Under the pieces are notes generated by a model. It was not told the DNA's origin and made no database searches. It was given only the letters and a program-made list of their open reading frames with translations. The position numbers were made by a program, and so were the translations under genes. Positions 660 to 34,652 of a DNA stretch of 41,238 nt are shown in pieces. Source of the DNA: Elusimicrobia bacterium GWA2_51_34 (GTDB taxonomy: Bacteria; Elusimicrobiota; Elusimicrobia; Elusimicrobiales; UBA9959); assembly GCA_001799565.1 (NCBI GenBank), contig MGTS01000001.1, positions 1 to 41,238 of the forward strand, in the 5' to 3' direction. Numbering within the stretch: the first letter of the stretch is position 1; each line of letters starts with the position of its first letter.

Positions 660-1511
660 CTATTTTACCCCCCACTTCGGGTGCTGTTGCGGCAAAAGCC
701 TTGCTGTTGAAAGTTTGGCCGCGGCCAGACAGCAGGCCTTTTCCAAAAAAATTCCGGATGGCGGCCGGACGGCGCCGGGGGAAGGGCTCCGCCTTGTGGC
801 CGGCTGTATAAAAAACGGAACACTCCGAGAAATAGAAGTGGTCAATTCCACAGCCTTTTTAAACTCCGACAACCGGGTTTTTGAAGTGACAACTGTCTTT
901 ATAAAGGTTTTTTCAGGCGCCACGGACAAAAACCTGCCGTGCTCACGCCAGAATGGCTTCTGCCCGGTTGAAGACGGCAACTTTATATCCATGGCCACCA
1001 CGTCCACCAGACTCTTTACTTTTAAAAACTCGCGATACAGAGTGCCGTTGGTTTCCAGGTGAACAGCCAGCCCGGCTTTTCTGAAAGCGGGGACCAGCGC
1101 TCTTATGAAGCCCCAGTTAAGCAACGGCTCCCCGCCAGTGAGAGAGACCGCTCCGGCCCTGTTTTTCCCGGCAAGTTTAATTACCTCAGCTGCCGCGTCC
1201 ACTACAGACATCTCTTTATAATCCGGACTCTCCTCTCTTATTTTTTCCGGCTTGTGACTAGTAACTTGTAACTTGTGCCGTGCGGTCTGTGACCTGTGAC
1301 TTGCAACCGGCACTTTGTGACTTGTGACTTGAGACTTGTGACAGCCAAAAGGAGCTTGGCTCCTTTTGGCTAAAGCGGCGGGTTCGTCACAGTATGCGCA
1401 CCGCAGATTGCAACCGGCAAAGCGAAGAAAGACCTGTTTTTGCCCGCAATAAAGCCCCTCGCCCTGAATAGAACAGAAAATTTCGGTTATAGAAGCTGTT
1501 AAAATTTTCAT
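660..1511 (-). CDS. queE: 7-carboxy-7-deazaguanine synthase (radical SAM) carrying an in-frame repeat insertion
   Basis: QueE converts 6-carboxytetrahydropterin to 7-carboxy-7-deazaguanine in the queuosine/7-deazaguanine pathway. The N-terminal substrate motif IFCSIQGEG (residues about 11-19), the radical SAM cluster Cys34-x3-Cys38-x2-Cys41 and the SAM-binding TGGEP (125-129) are intact, and the C-terminus has the family's Q-x-HPKWGVK ending. At 283 residues it is longer than usual (about 210-240). The excess, around residues 47-88, is encoded by a perfect hairpin plus an ACTTGTGAC array (1251-1371) that elsewhere in this window is strictly intergenic. Start chosen at Met-Lys-Ile-Leu (1511); the upstream in-frame codons lie in another repeat. 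queC lies just upstream. Activity despite the insert is uncertain. Confidence 0.9.
1251..1371. repeat. ACTTGTGAC word-array plus perfect hairpin, inside queE
   Basis: 1251-1342 is a run of imperfect ACTTGTGAC / CTTGTAACTTG units. 1343-1371 is a perfect hairpin with 13-base arms (AGCCAAAAGGAGC and its complement) around a 3-base loop. The order hairpin then GTCACAAGTC units, read on the minus strand, is the same as at 5141-5322, 9321-9465 and 15735-15862, but here the whole unit is translated in frame. Confidence 0.9.
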
Positions 1512-1516
1512 TATTA

Positions 1517-1625
1517 GCAAAAGAAGGCAAAAGAACGCCACGGAAAGCAACGGAAAATTAAATATATCTTTCTGCCCTTACTTTCTTTGGCTTTCTGTTG
1601 CCTTCCGTAACTTTCCGTTGCTATC
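1517..1625. repeat. inverted spacer word-array, CTTTCCGTTGC family
   Basis: The left arm has AAAGAACGCC / ACGGAAAGCAACGGAAA; the right arm has CTTTCTGTTGCCTTCCGTAACTTTCC in inverted orientation. The right arm forms the last 12 codons and the TAA of queC, and the left arm lies where the queE ribosome binding site should be. Confidence 0.75.
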
Positions 1626-5140: not shown

Positions 5141-5322
5141 TGCAAGTCACAAGTCACAGGGCACAAGCAACGAACAAAGAAAGTCACGGATATTATGCTC
5201 GGAGCCATGTGAAACTATATAAGCAATAAACTTTTGAGGAACCAATATAAATTTATGTTCTGTGCTTTTCTTGCTTGTGACTTGTGACTTGTGACACCAG
5301 ATTCCGCGAACGCGGAATCTGG
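5141..5322. repeat. ACTTGTGAC inverted array plus perfect hairpin
   Basis: Outer units CAAGTCACAAGTCAC (5143 on) and CTTGTGACTTGTGAC (up to 5296) enclose an AT-rich centre of about 95 bases. A perfect hairpin with 12-base arms, CCAGATTCCGCG and its complement, occupies 5297-5322 directly after the amidase stop codon. A 61-codon open frame through the array looks spurious. Confidence 0.85.
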
Positions 5323-7020
5323 TTATTTCCATCCTTTCATCTCGGTGTATTTCAGCACACCTTTATAAATCGCAGCGGCTAGTTTCGCCCGTACCTTTTT
5401 ATCGTTCAGGTTTTTCTGGTCGCTCGAATTGGACATAAAGCCCATTTCCACCAGAATTCCCGGCGTGTAGGTGCCCCGCAGTACATAAAACGCCGCCTGT
5501 TTAACATTCCGGTTTGAGAACGGCGTGCTTTTTTCAATTTCCCTTGAAACAAGCCCGGCGAGCTTGCTGCCTTCGTTTACATATTCATTTCTCGCGAGTG
5601 AATGCAGAAGGAGAGCCGTGGGGTCGGCTTGCGGCTCTCCGTCTTCCAAACCGACCACGGAGTTTTCATAGTCCGCCACTTCGGCCGCGCCCGGGTCGGA
5701 GGCTTTTTCCGACATAAAATACACCTCAAAGCCTTTTTCCCGCCTGTCCCTCGAAGCATTGGCGTGTATGGAAATAAAAATATCCGCCTTGAAATCGTTG
5801 GCTATACGGGAACGCTCGGCTAGCGGTATAAAAACATCGGAAGTTCGGGTAAGCAGCGCGTCAAACATAGAGTTCCCCTTGAAAAGGGAATAAAGCTCCT
5901 TTGCCACCAGCAGGTTAAGCTCTTTTTCCCTAAAGCCGAAAGCCCTCCTGCCGCCGGGGTCCTTGCCGCCGTGGCCCGCGTCTATCACTATTCTCCTGGC
6001 GCCGGAACTGTCAAGAACCATCTTATCCGGAATACTCACTCCCGCCGAAGGTGTTGAAACTACGCCTTCAACCGGAGCAGTATCAGGGTTTACTTCAAGC
6101 AGGACCGGCTCGCTTATAGCGGAGCTTGTCGGGATTATGACACTATCCGCCCCTGACGGACCCGGGTCTATGGCGCTGACCGCTGCCGCGTGTCCGCCTA
6201 AGGCGGACAAGTCGCCCTCCGGCGCCAGGCGGCCGGCGTCAGGCGAGGGGGCTATGGACTGGGCAACCGGATGCTCAACCTTGGATATATCAAAAACCAG
6301 ACGCGGGGGATTTGAAAGTTTGAAGGAATCCGGCTTACCGAAATTATCGTCGGGAATGATAATAATGCGGACCATCTTATTTTCCTGAAAAAGGTCCACA
6401 CGTTTAACCACTCCGTCTCCTATGTTTATTTTTTCTTCCCCCGCTATAACTCCCTCCGGAACGGTAATGGAGAATAAATTGTTTTCTTTCTGCGAGGTCT
6501 GATAATCAAGCGGCGTCTCAAGGTAAATCACCACCCTGGTTTTATTTTTGTAGGAAAAATAATTGACGGAACGGATATTGATCTCACGTTGAGCCGACAG
6601 CACGCCGGTATCGGAATTATAGCTCAGAGCGAAACCGAAGGCTTTGGCAAAATATTTTGAAACAAAAAAATCCATAGCCAGGAACGCCCGGCCGCCGCGC
6701 ACTATCAGGGGAGCCGAAAAAACGGCTTTTTCATCATTTAAGGAAACAGAATCGTTGTTTATTGAAAACACCACTTTACTGCCCCGTATCTGCAGCATAA
6801 GCCGCCCGGAAACCGGGTACCAGTACACCTTGCCGCCGACGAGCTTTGAGGTTTTAGAAGCGTCCAGGTAAAGCTTCCCTCCCAGGCTGTATGTACCGAT
6901 CTTGCCGGAGTAAATCCCGTTCTTTATGTATGATACTTCATCCACCCTGGCAAAAGCGTTGAGACAGCCGAACGCAATCAGCCCCGCAACCGGTAAAACT
7001 CTTTTAAGGAAAGTTCTCAT
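5323..7020 (-). CDS. secreted N-acetylmuramoyl-L-alanine amidase (AMIN + Amidase_3)
   Basis: This enzyme cuts the amide bond between N-acetylmuramic acid and L-alanine in peptidoglycan, in the periplasm, and is typically used in daughter-cell separation. A signal peptide covers residues 1-24. A beta-rich region follows (about 45-145), resembling the N-terminal domain of copper-amine-oxidase-like wall proteins, then an AMIN-like domain (about 148-248) and a Pro/Ser/Ala linker (about 250-340). The zinc amidase domain (342-565) has IVIDAGHGGKDPGG with His350, Glu365, His419 in FISIHANA, and catalytic Glu525 in VEMGFMSN. Inside the linker a 19-base perfect palindrome (6191-6209) is translated. 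A 12-base-pair hairpin directly follows the stop codon. Confidence 0.93.
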   Translation of the reverse strand: MRTFLKRVLPVAGLIAFGCLNAFARVDEVSYIKNGIYSGKIGTYSLGGKLYLDASKTSKLVGGKVYWYPVSGRLMLQIRGSKVVFSINNDSVSLNDEKAVFSAPLIVRGGRAFLAMDFFVSKYFAKAFGFALSYNSDTGVLSAQREINIRSVNYFSYKNKTRVVIYLETPLDYQTSQKENNLFSITVPEGVIAGEEKINIGDGVVKRVDLFQENKMVRIIIIPDDNFGKPDSFKLSNPPRLVFDISKVEHPVAQSIAPSPDAGRLAPEGDLSALGGHAAAVSAIDPGPSGADSVIIPTSSAISEPVLLEVNPDTAPVEGVVSTPSAGVSIPDKMVLDSSGARRIVIDAGHGGKDPGGRRAFGFREKELNLLVAKELYSLFKGNSMFDALLTRTSDVFIPLAERSRIANDFKADIFISIHANASRDRREKGFEVYFMSEKASDPGAAEVADYENSVVGLEDGEPQADPTALLLHSLARNEYVNEGSKLAGLVSREIEKSTPFSNRNVKQAAFYVLRGTYTPGILVEMGFMSNSSDQKNLNDKKVRAKLAAAIYKGVLKYTEMKGWK

Positions 7021-8638: not shown

Positions 8639-9316
8639 TTAAAAAACTTCCAGTTTGCCTTTTGAGTCAAACCAGAATAATTCCTTCCGCACTATACGCG
8701 CCGGAGCCGTACTTGAGCCTGACATCAGGCTGAGCACGGCCTCGGGTTTTATGTTTCTGCCTGGACCGAAAGCCAGCACCAGTTTAAGCGCTCCAGATCC
8801 GGCGGAGCAGTGTGCCTCAAGCACCAGCGGCCGGGCATCTACTGATTTTTTCTCTCCCGATGGCTTTACTCTCTCATAAACCGCGCTTTTAAGCTCAAGA
8901 AAGCGCGCCACTGACTCCTGGGAAAATCCTTCGGGCAAGCCCCCCTCAAGCGCATATTCGGCCGCGTTTACGCAGGCCTCTATGGACGGGAAAAACATCG
9001 GGATGCGCCTGGCCTCAATAAGCCTGAAACGATTACTGTCAAGGGCTGATATTTTTCCCCCGGCCGTTTCCGCCTTCACAAAATCCTCAAGGTAAAGGTC
9101 GGCATACTCGCATGTGCTTTCATATCCCACGGAAATAGCCGGGCCGAAAGACATTTTCGGCACTGTACCCGATCCGGCCTTGGCAGGCCGGCATTTGAGC
9201 CCCGAAGCCATTGCGATAGTCCGAAACGCCTTTATCTGCTCCAAATGGGTAAGCTGGCCTGCCCCTTTGAGCCTGGCAAATTTCAGCCGTATCCGGGATT
9301 TTGGTCCGTCAGTCAT
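8639..9316 (-). CDS. DUF2344 (TIGR03936-type) radical-SAM-associated protein
   Basis: The segment RIRLKFARLKGAGQLTHLEQ near the N-terminus, the SFGPAISVGYEST segment and the length (225 residues) fit the family usually fused to, or adjacent to, a B12-type radical SAM protein and often next to rng. Its biochemical role is unknown to me. The start is placed at Met-Thr-Asp-Gly (9316), because the upstream in-frame codons lie in an ACTTGTGAC array; that array also leaves no Shine-Dalgarno sequence. The radical SAM partner is not in the window; rodA lies upstream instead. Confidence 0.75.
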   Translation of the reverse strand: MTDGPKSRIRLKFARLKGAGQLTHLEQIKAFRTIAMASGLKCRPAKAGSGTVPKMSFGPAISVGYESTCEYADLYLEDFVKAETAGGKISALDSNRFRLIEARRIPMFFPSIEACVNAAEYALEGGLPEGFSQESVARFLELKSAVYERVKPSGEKKSVDARPLVLEAHCSAGSGALKLVLAFGPGRNIKPEAVLSLMSGSSTAPARIVRKELFWFDSKGKLEVF

Positions 9317-9320
9317 AAAA

Positions 9321-9465
9321 GTCACAAGTCTCAGGTCACAAGTCACAAGCAAGAGGTCTCAGGTCACAAGTTTTACAGGAAACCACAGATCTCACCTTTT
9401 CGTTTTTACCTGTGTCATGTGACCTGTGACTTGCGACTATGCTTTGGTCATCAGACCAAAGCATA
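9321..9465. repeat. ACTTGTGAC inverted array plus hairpin around the rodA stop codon
   Basis: 9321-9437 carries GTCACAAGTC and CTTGTGACCTGTGAC units in inverted arrangement. 9438-9465 is a perfect hairpin with 12-base arms, TATGCTTTGGTC and its complement, and a 4-base loop. The right arm encodes the last four rodA codons (Tyr-Ala-Leu-Val) and the TGA stop (9453 to 9451) begins in the loop, so the left arm is an inverted duplicate of the gene end. Confidence 0.85.
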
Positions 9466-10791
9466 CCGCCTTGCATAAATGGACTGCATTATGCCCATGG
9501 CCGTGAGAGTGGCCACCATGTTTGAACCGCCGTAAGACAAGAGCGGCAGAGGCACCCCTGCCACCGGGATAAGGCCCAAAAGCATACCGAAATTTATAAA
9601 AAAGTAAACCATGAACATGCCGAAAATACCGCAGCCGACCAGATAACCGAAACGGTCGCGGGCGAGCTTCGCCGTAAGCATTATACGGCGCAGCAAAAGC
9701 ACATATAGCCCCGCCACAAGCATAGTACCCCAAAAACCCATTTCCTCTCCGATAACGGCCAATATAAAATCCGTGTGCCGCTCCGGCACAAATCCAAGGC
9801 GCGACTGGGTGCCGGAAAAAATACCGCGCCCGAGTATCCCGCCCGATCCTATGGCAACGCGCGCCTGCAAAAGATTATACCCGGCGCCGCGCGGATCTGA
9901 TTCAGGCGAGAGAAAAACCTCAAGACGTTTCTGCTGATATTCTTTCATCTGATGCTGTACCATTATGCCGGAGAGGAATCCAAAAGAAATAACCATGGCC
10001 GCGCCCGCGAAAAAAACTCCGGAGATTTTTGAATAGAGCTGAACCGACAGCACCCACAGCAGGTACGCCGCCAGCCCCGTCCCGGCCAGGAAAAATAACG
10101 CGTTCCAGCTGAAATCGGAGAGATGAAAGAAGTAATTCACAAACGGGTTACCAAGCAGCTCGGGGTTCATGTTTATAAGCGTCCAAAGAACGGGGAAAAG
10201 CCCGGAAATAAAGCTATAACCGAATATAATCGCGAGATGAGAGATATTGGCCCCGGCGGCAAAAAGCATTATCAGTATTATCGGCAGGGTTATAAGTATA
10301 GCCGAAAAATCCGGTTGTTTTATAAGCAGAAAAAACACCGGAAGAGCCAGCAGAAAAGCCCCCAAAACAACTGAAAATTCCCGTATTTTCACAATGCGCT
10401 TATCCAGGTAGTTCGCGAGTACAAGTATCAGGCCTATACGCGCGAACTCAGAGGGCTGCACGGAAAAAAAAGGCAGGTGGAACCACGAACGCGCCCCTTT
10501 ATCCGCCACGCCGAACAGCAGAACAGCCGCCAGCGACATGAGCGTCAGACCGTAAACAAATTTCCACTGATCCTGGAACACCTGATAATTCAGGCTCCAG
10601 ACCGCGGAGAATGCTATAAGGGCGAGCGGCAGCGCTATGAAATGTGTTCTGACTATTTTTGCCTGATGGGGCAAAACTACCACGGAAGAAATAACCGCCA
10701 CCGTGCCGATAGTTAAAAGCAAAAGGATGGAAATAAAAAGCGTCCAGTCCATACGGCTTTTTTTGAGCGCAGCCTGAGGAGTAAATATCAT
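9451..10791 (-). CDS. rodA: RodA peptidoglycan glycosyltransferase (SEDS)
   Basis: RodA polymerises lipid II into glycan strands in the elongasome together with PBP2. At 446 residues with about ten hydrophobic segments it fits the SEDS family. GLGFVPERHTDFILAVIGEE-type sequence (here RLGFVPERHTDFILAVIGEE) and LPLLSYGGSNM near the C-terminus are hallmark motifs. I chose the ATG at 10791 instead of 10893, since the upstream part reads through a palindromic repeat; AGGTGGTGGG from that repeat then acts as ribosome binding site. The gene directly follows mrdA. Its last codons lie in a hairpin. Confidence 0.95.
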   Translation of the reverse strand: MIFTPQAALKKSRMDWTLFISILLLLTIGTVAVISSVVVLPHQAKIVRTHFIALPLALIAFSAVWSLNYQVFQDQWKFVYGLTLMSLAAVLLFGVADKGARSWFHLPFFSVQPSEFARIGLILVLANYLDKRIVKIREFSVVLGAFLLALPVFFLLIKQPDFSAILITLPIILIMLFAAGANISHLAIIFGYSFISGLFPVLWTLINMNPELLGNPFVNYFFHLSDFSWNALFFLAGTGLAAYLLWVLSVQLYSKISGVFFAGAAMVISFGFLSGIMVQHQMKEYQQKRLEVFLSPESDPRGAGYNLLQARVAIGSGGILGRGIFSGTQSRLGFVPERHTDFILAVIGEEMGFWGTMLVAGLYVLLLRRIMLTAKLARDRFGYLVGCGIFGMFMVYFFINFGMLLGLIPVAGVPLPLLSYGGSNMVATLTAMGIMQSIYARRYALV

Positions 10792-10868
10792 CCCACCACC
10801 TGCTTGCCCGCCGAAGGCGGACTTTTTTTCTTTTGATTGACATCCGGGCAAAAAGCAGGTGGTGGGAT
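10790..10868. repeat. palindromic spacer between mrdA and rodA
   Basis: The outer arms ATCCCACCACCTGCTT and AAGCAGGTGGTGGGAT are perfect over 16 bases; inner segments CCCGCC and GGGC extend the symmetry with small gaps. It begins at the mrdA stop codon and ends at the rodA start codon, so it makes up the whole spacer. Half-copies or relatives lie at 12716-12732 and 31868-31933. Confidence 0.85.
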
Positions 10869-12718
10869 CATACTTTCCCCGCTTCGGGCGCAAGCCCGGC
10901 CGGAACCGCCGTCCCGAGCTTAACGGATGGCGCGGGCGCCATATAAGCTTTTGACGGCAATTTATTTTTAAACAAGGCCTCTATCACCATTTTGGCGATA
11001 GGCGCGGCGGCGCTGGCGCCGTGCTCTCCGTGCTCTACCAGCACTGAAACCGCCACTTCGGCGGGCTGACCCGGTAACGCGGCGTAAGCCACGAACCAGG
11101 CGTGATCCTTGCCTTGCGGGTTTTGGGCTGTGCCGGTTTTACCATAAACATCTATGCCGCTTGTTTTGGCGGCCTGCCCTGTGCCTTCGTCCACTACCTG
11201 CCTTAAACCCTGCCGTAACAAATCCCAGGTTGAATCCTTAAAATTAAGACGGCTTAACTCTTCGACCCTGCCGCGATAAAGAGCCACGCCCTCCCTGTTC
11301 ACAATTTTGTTTACATAATAAGGCCGGTGAAAAATGCCCCCATTCGCTACCGCCGCTATAACAAGCGCCGTCTGTATCGGGGTAACCAGCGTCTCGCCCT
11401 GTCCGATGGCAAGATTTAAAGTGTCGCCTATGAACCAATAGCTTTTTTTGGCGGCCCTTTGGCTGGGACCGAAGACATTGCCCGACTTTTCATCAGGCAG
11501 AGATATACCGGTTGGCAGCCCCAGGCGGAACTGGCGGGCCTTTTTTTCGATATTAAGCGGACCCACCCGCAACGCGGCGTTATAATAATAAACATCGCAG
11601 GAATGCGCGAGGCCGTGCAAAAAATCCATTTTCCCGTGGCCTTTTTTTTCCCAACACTTGAATTTTCTGCTGCCGGCGTCATAATAGCCGGGACAATTAA
11701 AGGTTTCATCAACAGAGACCTTTCCGGTTTCAAGCAGCGCCGCGGAGGTAATAATTTTAAAAGGCGATGCAGGCGGATAAGTTCCCTGCAAAGCCACGTT
11801 AAACTCCGGCAGATTCTTCAGTTTTTCCTGGTCGCGGTCTTCCTGATACGCCACAAAAATATTGGGATCGTAATCCGGCATGGAAACAAGCGCGAGCACC
11901 GCTCCGGAACGCGGATCCAGGGCCACCACTGCGCCTTTACCTGTTGCCGACGCGGCAAGCCCCTCTTCGGCCGCCATCTGTGCCTTTGAGTTGATGGTCA
12001 GGTAAATATCGGCTCCGGAGGCCCATTCCCGGCTTTCAAGTCTGCGGCTGAGCCGGCCCCTTGAATCAACTTCCAGATAAATCCCGCCGTCCAGGCCTTT
12101 AAGCTCTGTTTCATACATCTTCTCAAGGCCGGTTTTACCCACGCGCGAATCCATGGAGTAATTTTTATCCTTGCCGCGCTGGCTCCACTCGCGTGGGTCC
12201 ATTTTGCCTATATAGCCTATTAAGTGGCTCAGGTAGGCGCCGAAAGGATAAAACCGCCGGGCTTCCACTATAATATCTACGCCGGGATAAATGCTTTTAA
12301 GCTCGGAAAGGGAAAGCATGTTTTTGGAAGAGATATTTTCCGCCAGACGCATTGGAGTTCCCATGCGGGCTGATTTAAAAAGCGTGTTGCGCAGCGCTTC
12401 ATATGGCAGCGCAAGCTGCCGCGCGAGACCTGAAGCCAGAGCGTCCGTCTCTGAATTTGTTTTGAGCTGTCCCGGAAAATAAATAAGGCTGAAAGAAGGT
12501 TTGTTGGTGGCGACGGCGATATCGTCCGAAGTAAAAATACGCCCCCGGGGCGCGACCTGGGCTATGATTTGGGTGCGGTTTTTATCGGCGATCTCCCTGT
12601 AATGGGACGCCATAAGCACCTGCAGATTTATAAGGCGCAGTAAGAATACCAGGGCCGCCGCGTAAGCGAGTATCCACAGGTAATTGAGCCTTTCCTGCGA
12701 GATGTGACGGTCTATCAT
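10868..12718 (-). CDS. mrdA: penicillin-binding protein 2, elongation transpeptidase
   Basis: PBP2 cross-links peptidoglycan during cell elongation and pairs with RodA. It is a single-pass membrane protein of 616 residues, with a membrane segment at about 13-34 and a non-catalytic pedestal domain to about 230. The transpeptidase domain has Ser318-x-x-Lys321 (in PPASPFK), Ser373-Cys-Asp375 and Lys527-Thr-Gly529. The ATG at 12718 is chosen because GGTGGTGGG precedes it and the upstream codons encode a repeat. It sits in the order mreB-mreC-mreD-mrdA-rodA. Confidence 0.96.
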   Translation of the reverse strand: MIDRHISQERLNYLWILAYAAALVFLLRLINLQVLMASHYREIADKNRTQIIAQVAPRGRIFTSDDIAVATNKPSFSLIYFPGQLKTNSETDALASGLARQLALPYEALRNTLFKSARMGTPMRLAENISSKNMLSLSELKSIYPGVDIIVEARRFYPFGAYLSHLIGYIGKMDPREWSQRGKDKNYSMDSRVGKTGLEKMYETELKGLDGGIYLEVDSRGRLSRRLESREWASGADIYLTINSKAQMAAEEGLAASATGKGAVVALDPRSGAVLALVSMPDYDPNIFVAYQEDRDQEKLKNLPEFNVALQGTYPPASPFKIITSAALLETGKVSVDETFNCPGYYDAGSRKFKCWEKKGHGKMDFLHGLAHSCDVYYYNAALRVGPLNIEKKARQFRLGLPTGISLPDEKSGNVFGPSQRAAKKSYWFIGDTLNLAIGQGETLVTPIQTALVIAAVANGGIFHRPYYVNKIVNREGVALYRGRVEELSRLNFKDSTWDLLRQGLRQVVDEGTGQAAKTSGIDVYGKTGTAQNPQGKDHAWFVAYAALPGQPAEVAVSVLVEHGEHGASAAAPIAKMVIEALFKNKLPSKAYMAPAPSVKLGTAVPAGLAPEAGKV

Positions 12719-15734: not shown

Positions 15735-15862
15735 AGTCACAGGTCACAAGTTTCATGTCACAAGTAAAGAACCGCCTGCAACTGAAAAGTTTTTGTTCCC
15801 TGTTTAAGCCTCTTACTTGTGGCTTGTGACCTGGAACTTGTGACTAGCGGCGCGTTGCGCCG
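15735..15862. repeat. ACTTGTGAC inverted array plus hairpin after rpoA
   Basis: Left units AGTCACAGGTCACAAG, right units TTACTTGTGGCTTGTGACC...CTTGTGAC in inverted order. CGGCGC-GTT-GCGCCG (15848-15862) forms a hairpin directly against the rpoA stop codon, the same layout as at 5141-5322. It fills the rpoA-rplQ gap, which is normally very short. Confidence 0.85.
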
Positions 15863-34010: not shown

Positions 34011-34652
34011 TCAAAAAACTCCTGCCGCCTTTTTGAGGTAATGGCGGAAAACGGCGTCACCCAGAACACCATTGCGCTCTTTATCTAATATTTTCCACTC
34101 TTTTTCGGGGATGGGCTTACCAAGAAAATCCAGATATGCGGCCCGGGCATTCTCCAGATTATCGCTGAAGAACAGAAGCGCCTCTTTTGAGTCAGTGATA
34201 ACCCTGTCCGTATCTGCCAGATAAGCCCGGTGGCTGCTCCACTCATATTTCTCAGGGCTGGAAACAATGCCGGCCTTTACAGGGTTCATATGGAGATAGC
34301 GCAGCAAGGCCATGAAATAGCGATCCTCCTGCACAAGCTTGCTTTTAAATCTGCTCTCAAACAAATGCCCCGTTTTACCGTGCCGTTTATTGAAATATAA
34401 CGAGTAGTCCAGGCTAAGCCTGTACATTGCCTCGCTGATATTTGGAAGGAGGGTTTTAAGAAAAAGATGTATATGGTTCGACATCAGCACGTAGGCATAT
34501 ATTTTCAGCCGGAAGGCTGAAATTGCCCCGCACAGCAGGTCAAGATAGTGTCGCCGGTCAACGCCATCAAGAAAAATATCCCCCCTGTCATTTCCGCGGC
34601 TTCGCACATGATAAACCGCCCCCGGATAAGCGATCCTGAAAGGTCTGGGCAT
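34011..34652 (-). CDS. REP-associated tyrosine transposase (Y1_Tnp / RAYT)
   Basis: A single-strand DNA transposase-like HUH enzyme of 213 residues. It begins MPRPFRIAYPGAVYHVRSRG, has the metal-binding His60-Ile-His62 in MSNHIHLFLKT, a tyrosine-bearing helix LSLDYSLYFNKRHGKTGHLF (Tyr83 or Tyr86 as nucleophile) and RYLHMNPVKAG, typical of RAYTs. These proteins act on palindromic REP sequences. Here a GGTACC-type palindrome lies 9 bases before its start and more such elements occupy the next four gaps. Its last codons resemble a repeat also found at 37361-37420. Confidence 0.93.
   Translation of the reverse strand: MPRPFRIAYPGAVYHVRSRGNDRGDIFLDGVDRRHYLDLLCGAISAFRLKIYAYVLMSNHIHLFLKTLLPNISEAMYRLSLDYSLYFNKRHGKTGHLFESRFKSKLVQEDRYFMALLRYLHMNPVKAGIVSSPEKYEWSSHRAYLADTDRVITDSKEALLFFSDNLENARAAYLDFLGKPIPEKEWKILDKERNGVLGDAVFRHYLKKAAGVF

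Follow-up and report, generated by a model that had tools for sequence, protein, structure and literature searches.

Perfect hairpins at the edges of inverted heptamer arrays in Elusimicrobia bacterium GWA2_51_34 as possible products of fold-back template switching

Introduction

The rodA gene of the uncultured Elusimicrobia bacterium GWA2_51_34 ends in a perfect hairpin that carries the stop codon in its loop and leads directly into an array of heptamer repeats. This raises the question whether the hairpin was copied from the end of the gene, was delivered together with the array or is maintained as an RNA structure. The locus is part of a stretch of 41,238 nucleotides (contig MGTS01000001.1), which was analyzed at its full length and is referred to here as the window. 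It has been reported that template switching both creates hairpins and makes them perfect and that it leaves compensatory changes and inverted loops as footprints (PMC8794818), and the correction of quasipalindromes by this route is established in E. coli (PMC7202029).

Results

The hairpin at the end of rodA

The product of the gene belongs to the RodA/FtsW family; the best NCBIfam model is rodA_shape, with a score slightly below the model cut-off. Read on the minus strand, the gene end forms the structure TATGCTTTGGTC-TGAT-GACCAAAGCATA, and the position of the hairpin as well as the location of the stop codon TGA (9451-9453) within the 4-nt loop were given correctly in the initial annotation. 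The sequence occurs only once in the genome and its predicted folding energy is far below that of shuffled sequences (-24.6 versus -9.3 kcal/mol, z = -6.3). The 3' arm adjoins the heptamer array GTCGCAAGTCACAGGTCAC..., an element of the (GTCACAA)n type, without a gap. As the stem is followed by GTCGCAAG and not by a U-tract, it lacks the combination of GC-rich stem and U-tract that defines an intrinsic terminator. The features of the locus are as follows:

9451..10893, minus strand: rodA (PF01098, E 1e-79)
9438..9465, minus strand: perfect 12-bp hairpin, loop TGAT with the rodA stop (sequence, genome uniqueness, fold of -24.6 kcal/mol)
9454..9465, minus strand: 5' arm TATGCTTTGGTC, the final four RodA codons Y-A-L-V, native (coding end kept in about 35 relatives)
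9438..9449, minus strand: 3' arm GACCAAAGCATA, apparently a derived inverted copy (missing from all orthologous rodA/DUF2344 junctions read)
9372..9437, minus strand: rodA-proximal heptamer arm (GTCGCAA GTCACAG GTCACAT...) and element centre (sequence)
9319..9371, plus strand: DUF2344-side arm of the element, (GTCACAA)n in inverted orientation (periods of 7 and 21 in the tandem repeat finder)
9447..9451, minus strand: ATGAC, copy 1 of the 5-nt direct duplication on either side of the insertion (sequence)
9312..9316, minus strand: ATGAC, copy 2, the start codon of the DUF2344/TIGR03936 gene (sequence)

The duplication follows from the junction TG-ATGAC-CAAAGCATA-array-CTTTT-ATGAC-TGACGG and is evidence from this one locus. 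Target duplication as a general feature of the elements was rejected, because it is clear only at rodA and the words shared elsewhere seem to be coincidental. Of the features of a MITE, the elements thus show the inverted heptamer arms and, at rodA only, one 5-nt duplication; no transposase is linked to them.

Comparison with orthologous junctions is informative about the origin of the two arms. The coding end of rodA (RRYALV, stop) is conserved in about 35 relatives, in many of which the next gene (DUF2344) begins only 1-20 nt after the rodA stop. These junctions contain a different heptamer or no array; G001 and G002, for instance, have other heptamers and no hairpin. The 3' arm GACCAAAGCATA was found at none of the approximately 35 rodA junctions, whether or not an array is present, and the chance of a given 12-base match is about 6e-8. 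As the 5' arm is conserved and the 3' arm occurs in no relative, we conclude from these comparisons that the former is ancestral coding DNA and the latter its derived inverted copy. The proposal of the initial annotation that the arm was templated from the gene end is therefore borne out at rodA, also by the comparison with empty sites that it had called for: a hairpin kept constant at array-less orthologs would have predated the element, and the 3' arm is absent from all of these relatives.

Heptamer arrays in the genome

The array at rodA is one of many: when up to two mismatches are allowed, the pattern ACTTGTGACTTGTGAC matches 131 times in forward and 135 times in reverse orientation, as opposed to 8 and 4 times for the pattern read backwards. 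The rates given below for the source genome come from a sample of 819 kb, made up of the regions around array hits and the window; they apply to this array-rich sample and should not be extended to the genome as a whole. A 7-nt periodic stretch follows 17.7% of the stop codons versus 0.6% of in-gene controls, and the same test returned no stretches with periods of 4-6 after stop codons of the sample. Several heptamer families coexist (GTCACAA, GCCATAA, GTAGGCT, GGGTATA and TAGCGAA), and the usual layout is a pair of inverted heptamer arms around a centre, which in the GCCATAA, GGGTAGA and GCGAATA types is often AAGGAACTCCTT. The window contains no Rfam families.

The number of GTCACAA matches is 177 in this genome, 268 in the congener G001 and 102 in G006, with two matches across genus g4 and none in genera g7, g12, g13 or the neighbouring family f2; the counts of GGGTATA are similarly patchy across genomes. 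Taking both tested families together, g4, g7, g11-g13 and f2 are nearly or wholly devoid of them, whereas relatives have hundreds. The junction downstream of rho (L154 and orthologs) carries a repeat array in all five genomes read, and these arrays are of at least four kinds (GTCACAA with hairpin, CAGAAGT type, TAGTGGA and GGGTATA). At L156 15837-16018, a unit of about 45 nt, GTCACAAGACACAAGTCACAGGTCACAAGTAGCAGAATTTCTGTT, is repeated head to tail beside a hairpin.

Hairpins at array edges

An edge hairpin was defined as a perfect hairpin with an arm of at least 8 bp and a loop of 3-8 nt that ends no more than 2 nt from the outer edge of an array. Such hairpins are present at 30 of 100 outer array edges in the sample, compared to 38 of 20,000 random positions (0.19%), and at a single one of 100 positions located 35 nt inside the element. 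Most of the 30 are flush with the array (21 with gap 0), and 18 have a 3-nt loop. With respect to long stems, 47 perfect hairpins of at least 12 bp were found in the 819 kb, 16 of which adjoin an array edge, and a Markov-shuffled copy of the sample contained none of this length. The excess over random positions and the lack of long stems after shuffling exclude chance as an explanation. Where the upstream gene was identified, its stop codon is mostly located within the stem or among the initial bases of the stem. Hairpins that span the gene end and the stop codon also precede GCCATAA, GTAGGCT and GGGTATA arrays in the source genome. We found no published description of template-switch hairpins concentrated at array edges and stop codons.

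In the congener G001 hairpins occur at 7 of 22 array edges, one locus being counted twice. Genus g5 (G006) has arrays of the same GTCACAA heptamer, and only 1 of its 29 edges bears a hairpin, which indicates that the array alone is not sufficient for hairpin formation. On the same count we rejected the view that the hairpin is an invariant component of the array. Edges without a hairpin are the majority in the sample as well.

Three further hairpins in the window had been assigned to the same element family. All of them are present, with the reservation that the one behind rpoA is limited to a 6-bp core, beyond which pairing is imperfect:

1343..1371, minus strand: 13-bp hairpin, loop of 3 nt, before the in-frame array of queE (stem covarying with G002 and L064)
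5296..5323, minus strand: 12-bp hairpin, loop of 4 nt, at the stop codon of the amidase gene (two pairs compensated relative to G001)
15848..15862, minus strand: 6-bp hairpin core CGGCGC-AAC-GCGCCG, loop of 3 nt, after the rpoA stop (loop GTT in G001, inverted)

In QueE (window 660-1550), the hairpin and the heptamer array are translated in frame immediately after CDEPAAL, and the profile match of the protein is split around the translated insert. In-frame versions are found in G002 and L064, G010 has the hairpin alone and the remaining relatives have neither.

Covariation of stems and inversion of loops

Stems were compared between this genome and relatives in 16 cases, which were picked post hoc because hairpins are visible on both sides and are therefore biased towards pairing. 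They contain 11 compensated pairs and 11 one-sided changes (3 left-only and 8 right-only), whereas 1.5 double changes are expected if both sides vary independently. Compensated changes were found at queE, amidase, polA, a type II secretion gene and L140; the queE stem varies in three ways (AGCC/GGCT, TGTA/TACA and GGTA/TACC). In addition, exact inversions of three-base loops were detected at rpoA (AAC/GTT) and at a tolC-like gene (GAA/TTC); the sdhC loop (TAA/TTA) differs in just one base and is a weak case. Covarying stems and inverted loops fit fold-back synthesis and are the footprints that have been described for template switching.

Hairpin and array are separable

Hairpins without an array are found at the end of the agmatinase gene in G001 and G002, at the end of polA in G010, there with one G-T pair, and inside queE of G010. 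Arrays without a hairpin occur at the DAG-kinase locus in G001 and in most of G006. At sdhC of G001 both flanking hairpins have been retained and the array is reduced to 12 nt. The idea that the element family begins with a hairpin is, as a general rule, contradicted by these cases and by the edges in g5.

The 5' arm at polA is native coding sequence, as it is at rodA, and fold-back copying probably also accounts for polA, agmatinase and the L140 locus. Other stems, namely AGCAAAAGGAGC-NNN-GCTCCTTTTGCT and GCGGCGC-NNN-GCGCCGC, recur at unrelated loci and were therefore probably carried in and not copied locally. Thus, the expectation that the arm is always copied from flanking host sequence holds for rodA and probably for these three loci, but not for the recurrent stems, and to judge from their distribution part of the hairpin set probably spread with the array instead of arising in place. 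At L117 it is the coding arm (AGATGG to CGCTGG) and not the outer arm that seems to have changed; as it appears to have been brought into line with the outer arm, copying may run in both directions. Given the recurrent stems, the g5 arrays without hairpins and the hairpins without arrays, the hairpin is, by this comparison of loci, a secondary feature of array edges, and the element does not always begin with one.

Discussion

We assume with moderate confidence that the hairpins were formed, and later made perfect, by fold-back template switching at the edges of inserted inverted heptamer arrays. This reading accounts best for a native 5' arm next to a new 3' arm, for the clustering at edges, for covariation and for loop inversion. 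Three traces that template switching should leave behind were found: an ancestral arm with its derived inverted copy at rodA, judged against about 35 relatives, multiple paired stem changes between relatives at loci chosen post hoc, and inverted loops in a few cases. In the proposed mechanism, the two inverted heptamer arms would fold into a long hairpin and stall replication at the base of the array, so that the nascent 3' end, located within the last bases of the gene, could fold back. The folded end would copy 9-12 nt of itself and then either return to the template or continue into the array. At rodA the seed could have been GTC-TGAT-GAC at the stop/start overlap, since in the native junction, written as GGTC-TGATGAC, GAC can pair with GTC across TGAT; given this seed, only CAAAGCATA would be left to copy. 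ATGAC on both sides would be expected if synthesis had returned to the template 5 nt short of where it had left it, a consideration that applies to one site. Repeated switching at later times would keep imperfect stems perfect and at times invert the loop.

It is also conceivable, but we regard it as unlikely, that a lineage-specific insertion process couples the self-copying of a folded 3' end to the gain of inverted heptamer arrays. In such a process, a DNA end at the stop/start junction would snap back, copy about 10 nt of itself, then copy heptamers and rejoin, and hairpin plus array would be the signature of this process at many gene ends. A single event of a related kind, in which an end located at the terminus of the gene first folds back and copies itself, then takes heptamers from another array or template and rejoins in a microhomology-mediated or telomerase-like manner, would explain why hairpins are flush with the array and why a 5-nt ATGAC duplication flanks the rodA insertion. 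We consider it highly improbable, as most array edges are devoid of hairpins and no reverse transcriptase domain was found in the genome, which is 97.8% complete; heptamer synthesis by a reverse transcriptase or a telomerase-like enzyme was rejected because the genome has no match to RVT_1 (PF00078).

Selection on RNA is a different kind of explanation. Structures at gene ends might serve as terminators, protect the mRNA 3' end or insulate the stop codon from the array, and compensatory changes would then come from selection and not from template switching. Stop codons do lie at or within many stems, the stems covary and about one third of the listed stems contain T-runs in their right arms that could act as terminators. 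However, GTCACA and not a U-tract directly follows most stems, some stems are located inside operons (rpoA-rplQ) or within the queE reading frame, the same gene ends in relatives lack stems, and the exact inversion of loops is not explained by selection alone. This makes selected RNA structures quite unlikely in our view, and intrinsic terminators in particular were rejected, owing to the absence of a U-tract at rodA and the operon-internal and intragenic positions. Very unlikely, too, seems a mobile composite of hairpin and GTCACAA array that delivers both by insertion and has a hypervariable hairpin. The recurrence of stem families beside the array at several loci, the dispersal of near-identical array segments and the patchy distribution among genera are in line with it, but the 5' arms at rodA and polA are native coding DNA, the g5 arrays of the same heptamer lack hairpins, and hairpins persist or occur where there is no array.

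Fold-back template switching as proposed here resembles the quasipalindrome template switching described for E. coli and other organisms, in which perfect inverted repeats arise in one step, paired changes keep stems perfect and loops can invert (PMC8794818 of 2022; PMC7202029 of 2020), a likeness in mechanism that we infer from sequence. The known cases differ in that those described here are concentrated at heptamer array edges and stop codons, with tens of loci in one genome. In REP/BIME elements, which go with RAYT transposases, short palindromes likewise lie behind genes and bear an invariant tag, GTAG or CGTC, on one of their sides (PMC3733652). Here, in contrast, the stem differs at almost every locus, the foot is GTCAC instead of GTAG or CGTC, and the RAYT genes inspected are not flanked by heptamer arrays. 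The genome has six Y1_Tnp matches, and an origin from RAYT/REP was rejected, as the inspected flanks of these genes carry other palindromes or none and not those of the arrays. The RAYT-like Y1_Tnp gene in the window (34011-34652) is preceded by a repeated palindrome, AAAAAGGTACC-AGGTACCTTTTT, and similar copies of it are present at other places in the window. Perfect palindromes of 24-25 bp, AGTTAAGGTGACACACAACTTAATT..., are located at L132 7106-7160 and 8111-8167, and a similar one lies upstream of a RAYT gene in L248, which marks them as a separate palindrome family.

Intergenic 7-nt repeats that are numerous per genome are also known from cyanobacteria as STRRs. The TAACTGA heptamer repeats of Beggiatoaceae (PMC4679880) are likewise intergenic, occur many times per genome and have no known function, but are almost all direct repeats of a single heptamer, whereas inverted pairs and several families per genome are found here. 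The arrays described here further differ from them in the centre AAGGAACTCCTT, common to several families, and in the edge hairpins. The palindromic elements of Rickettsia, inserts tolerated in frame within genes, are similar to the situation in queE, but differ from the present arrays in sequence, heptamer structure and phylum.

The arrays that accompany the hairpins are a larger unexplained object. They use different heptamers in different lineages and share a centre among several families; to our knowledge no engine behind them is known, and our literature search for heptamers in Elusimicrobiota returned no report. The contrast between array-poor genera and the array-rich g1, g3, g5 and g6 could be used to search for a trans-acting gene. 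With regard to the hairpins, the mutational mechanism is a known one, and it is the setting that is unusual, dense and comparable. Template switching has mostly been inferred from rare, scattered events. Within one genus, tens of loci now allow the same gene ends to be compared in the empty state, with the array only, with the hairpin only and with both, which permits a direct study of the birth and upkeep of perfect hairpins without assuming selection.
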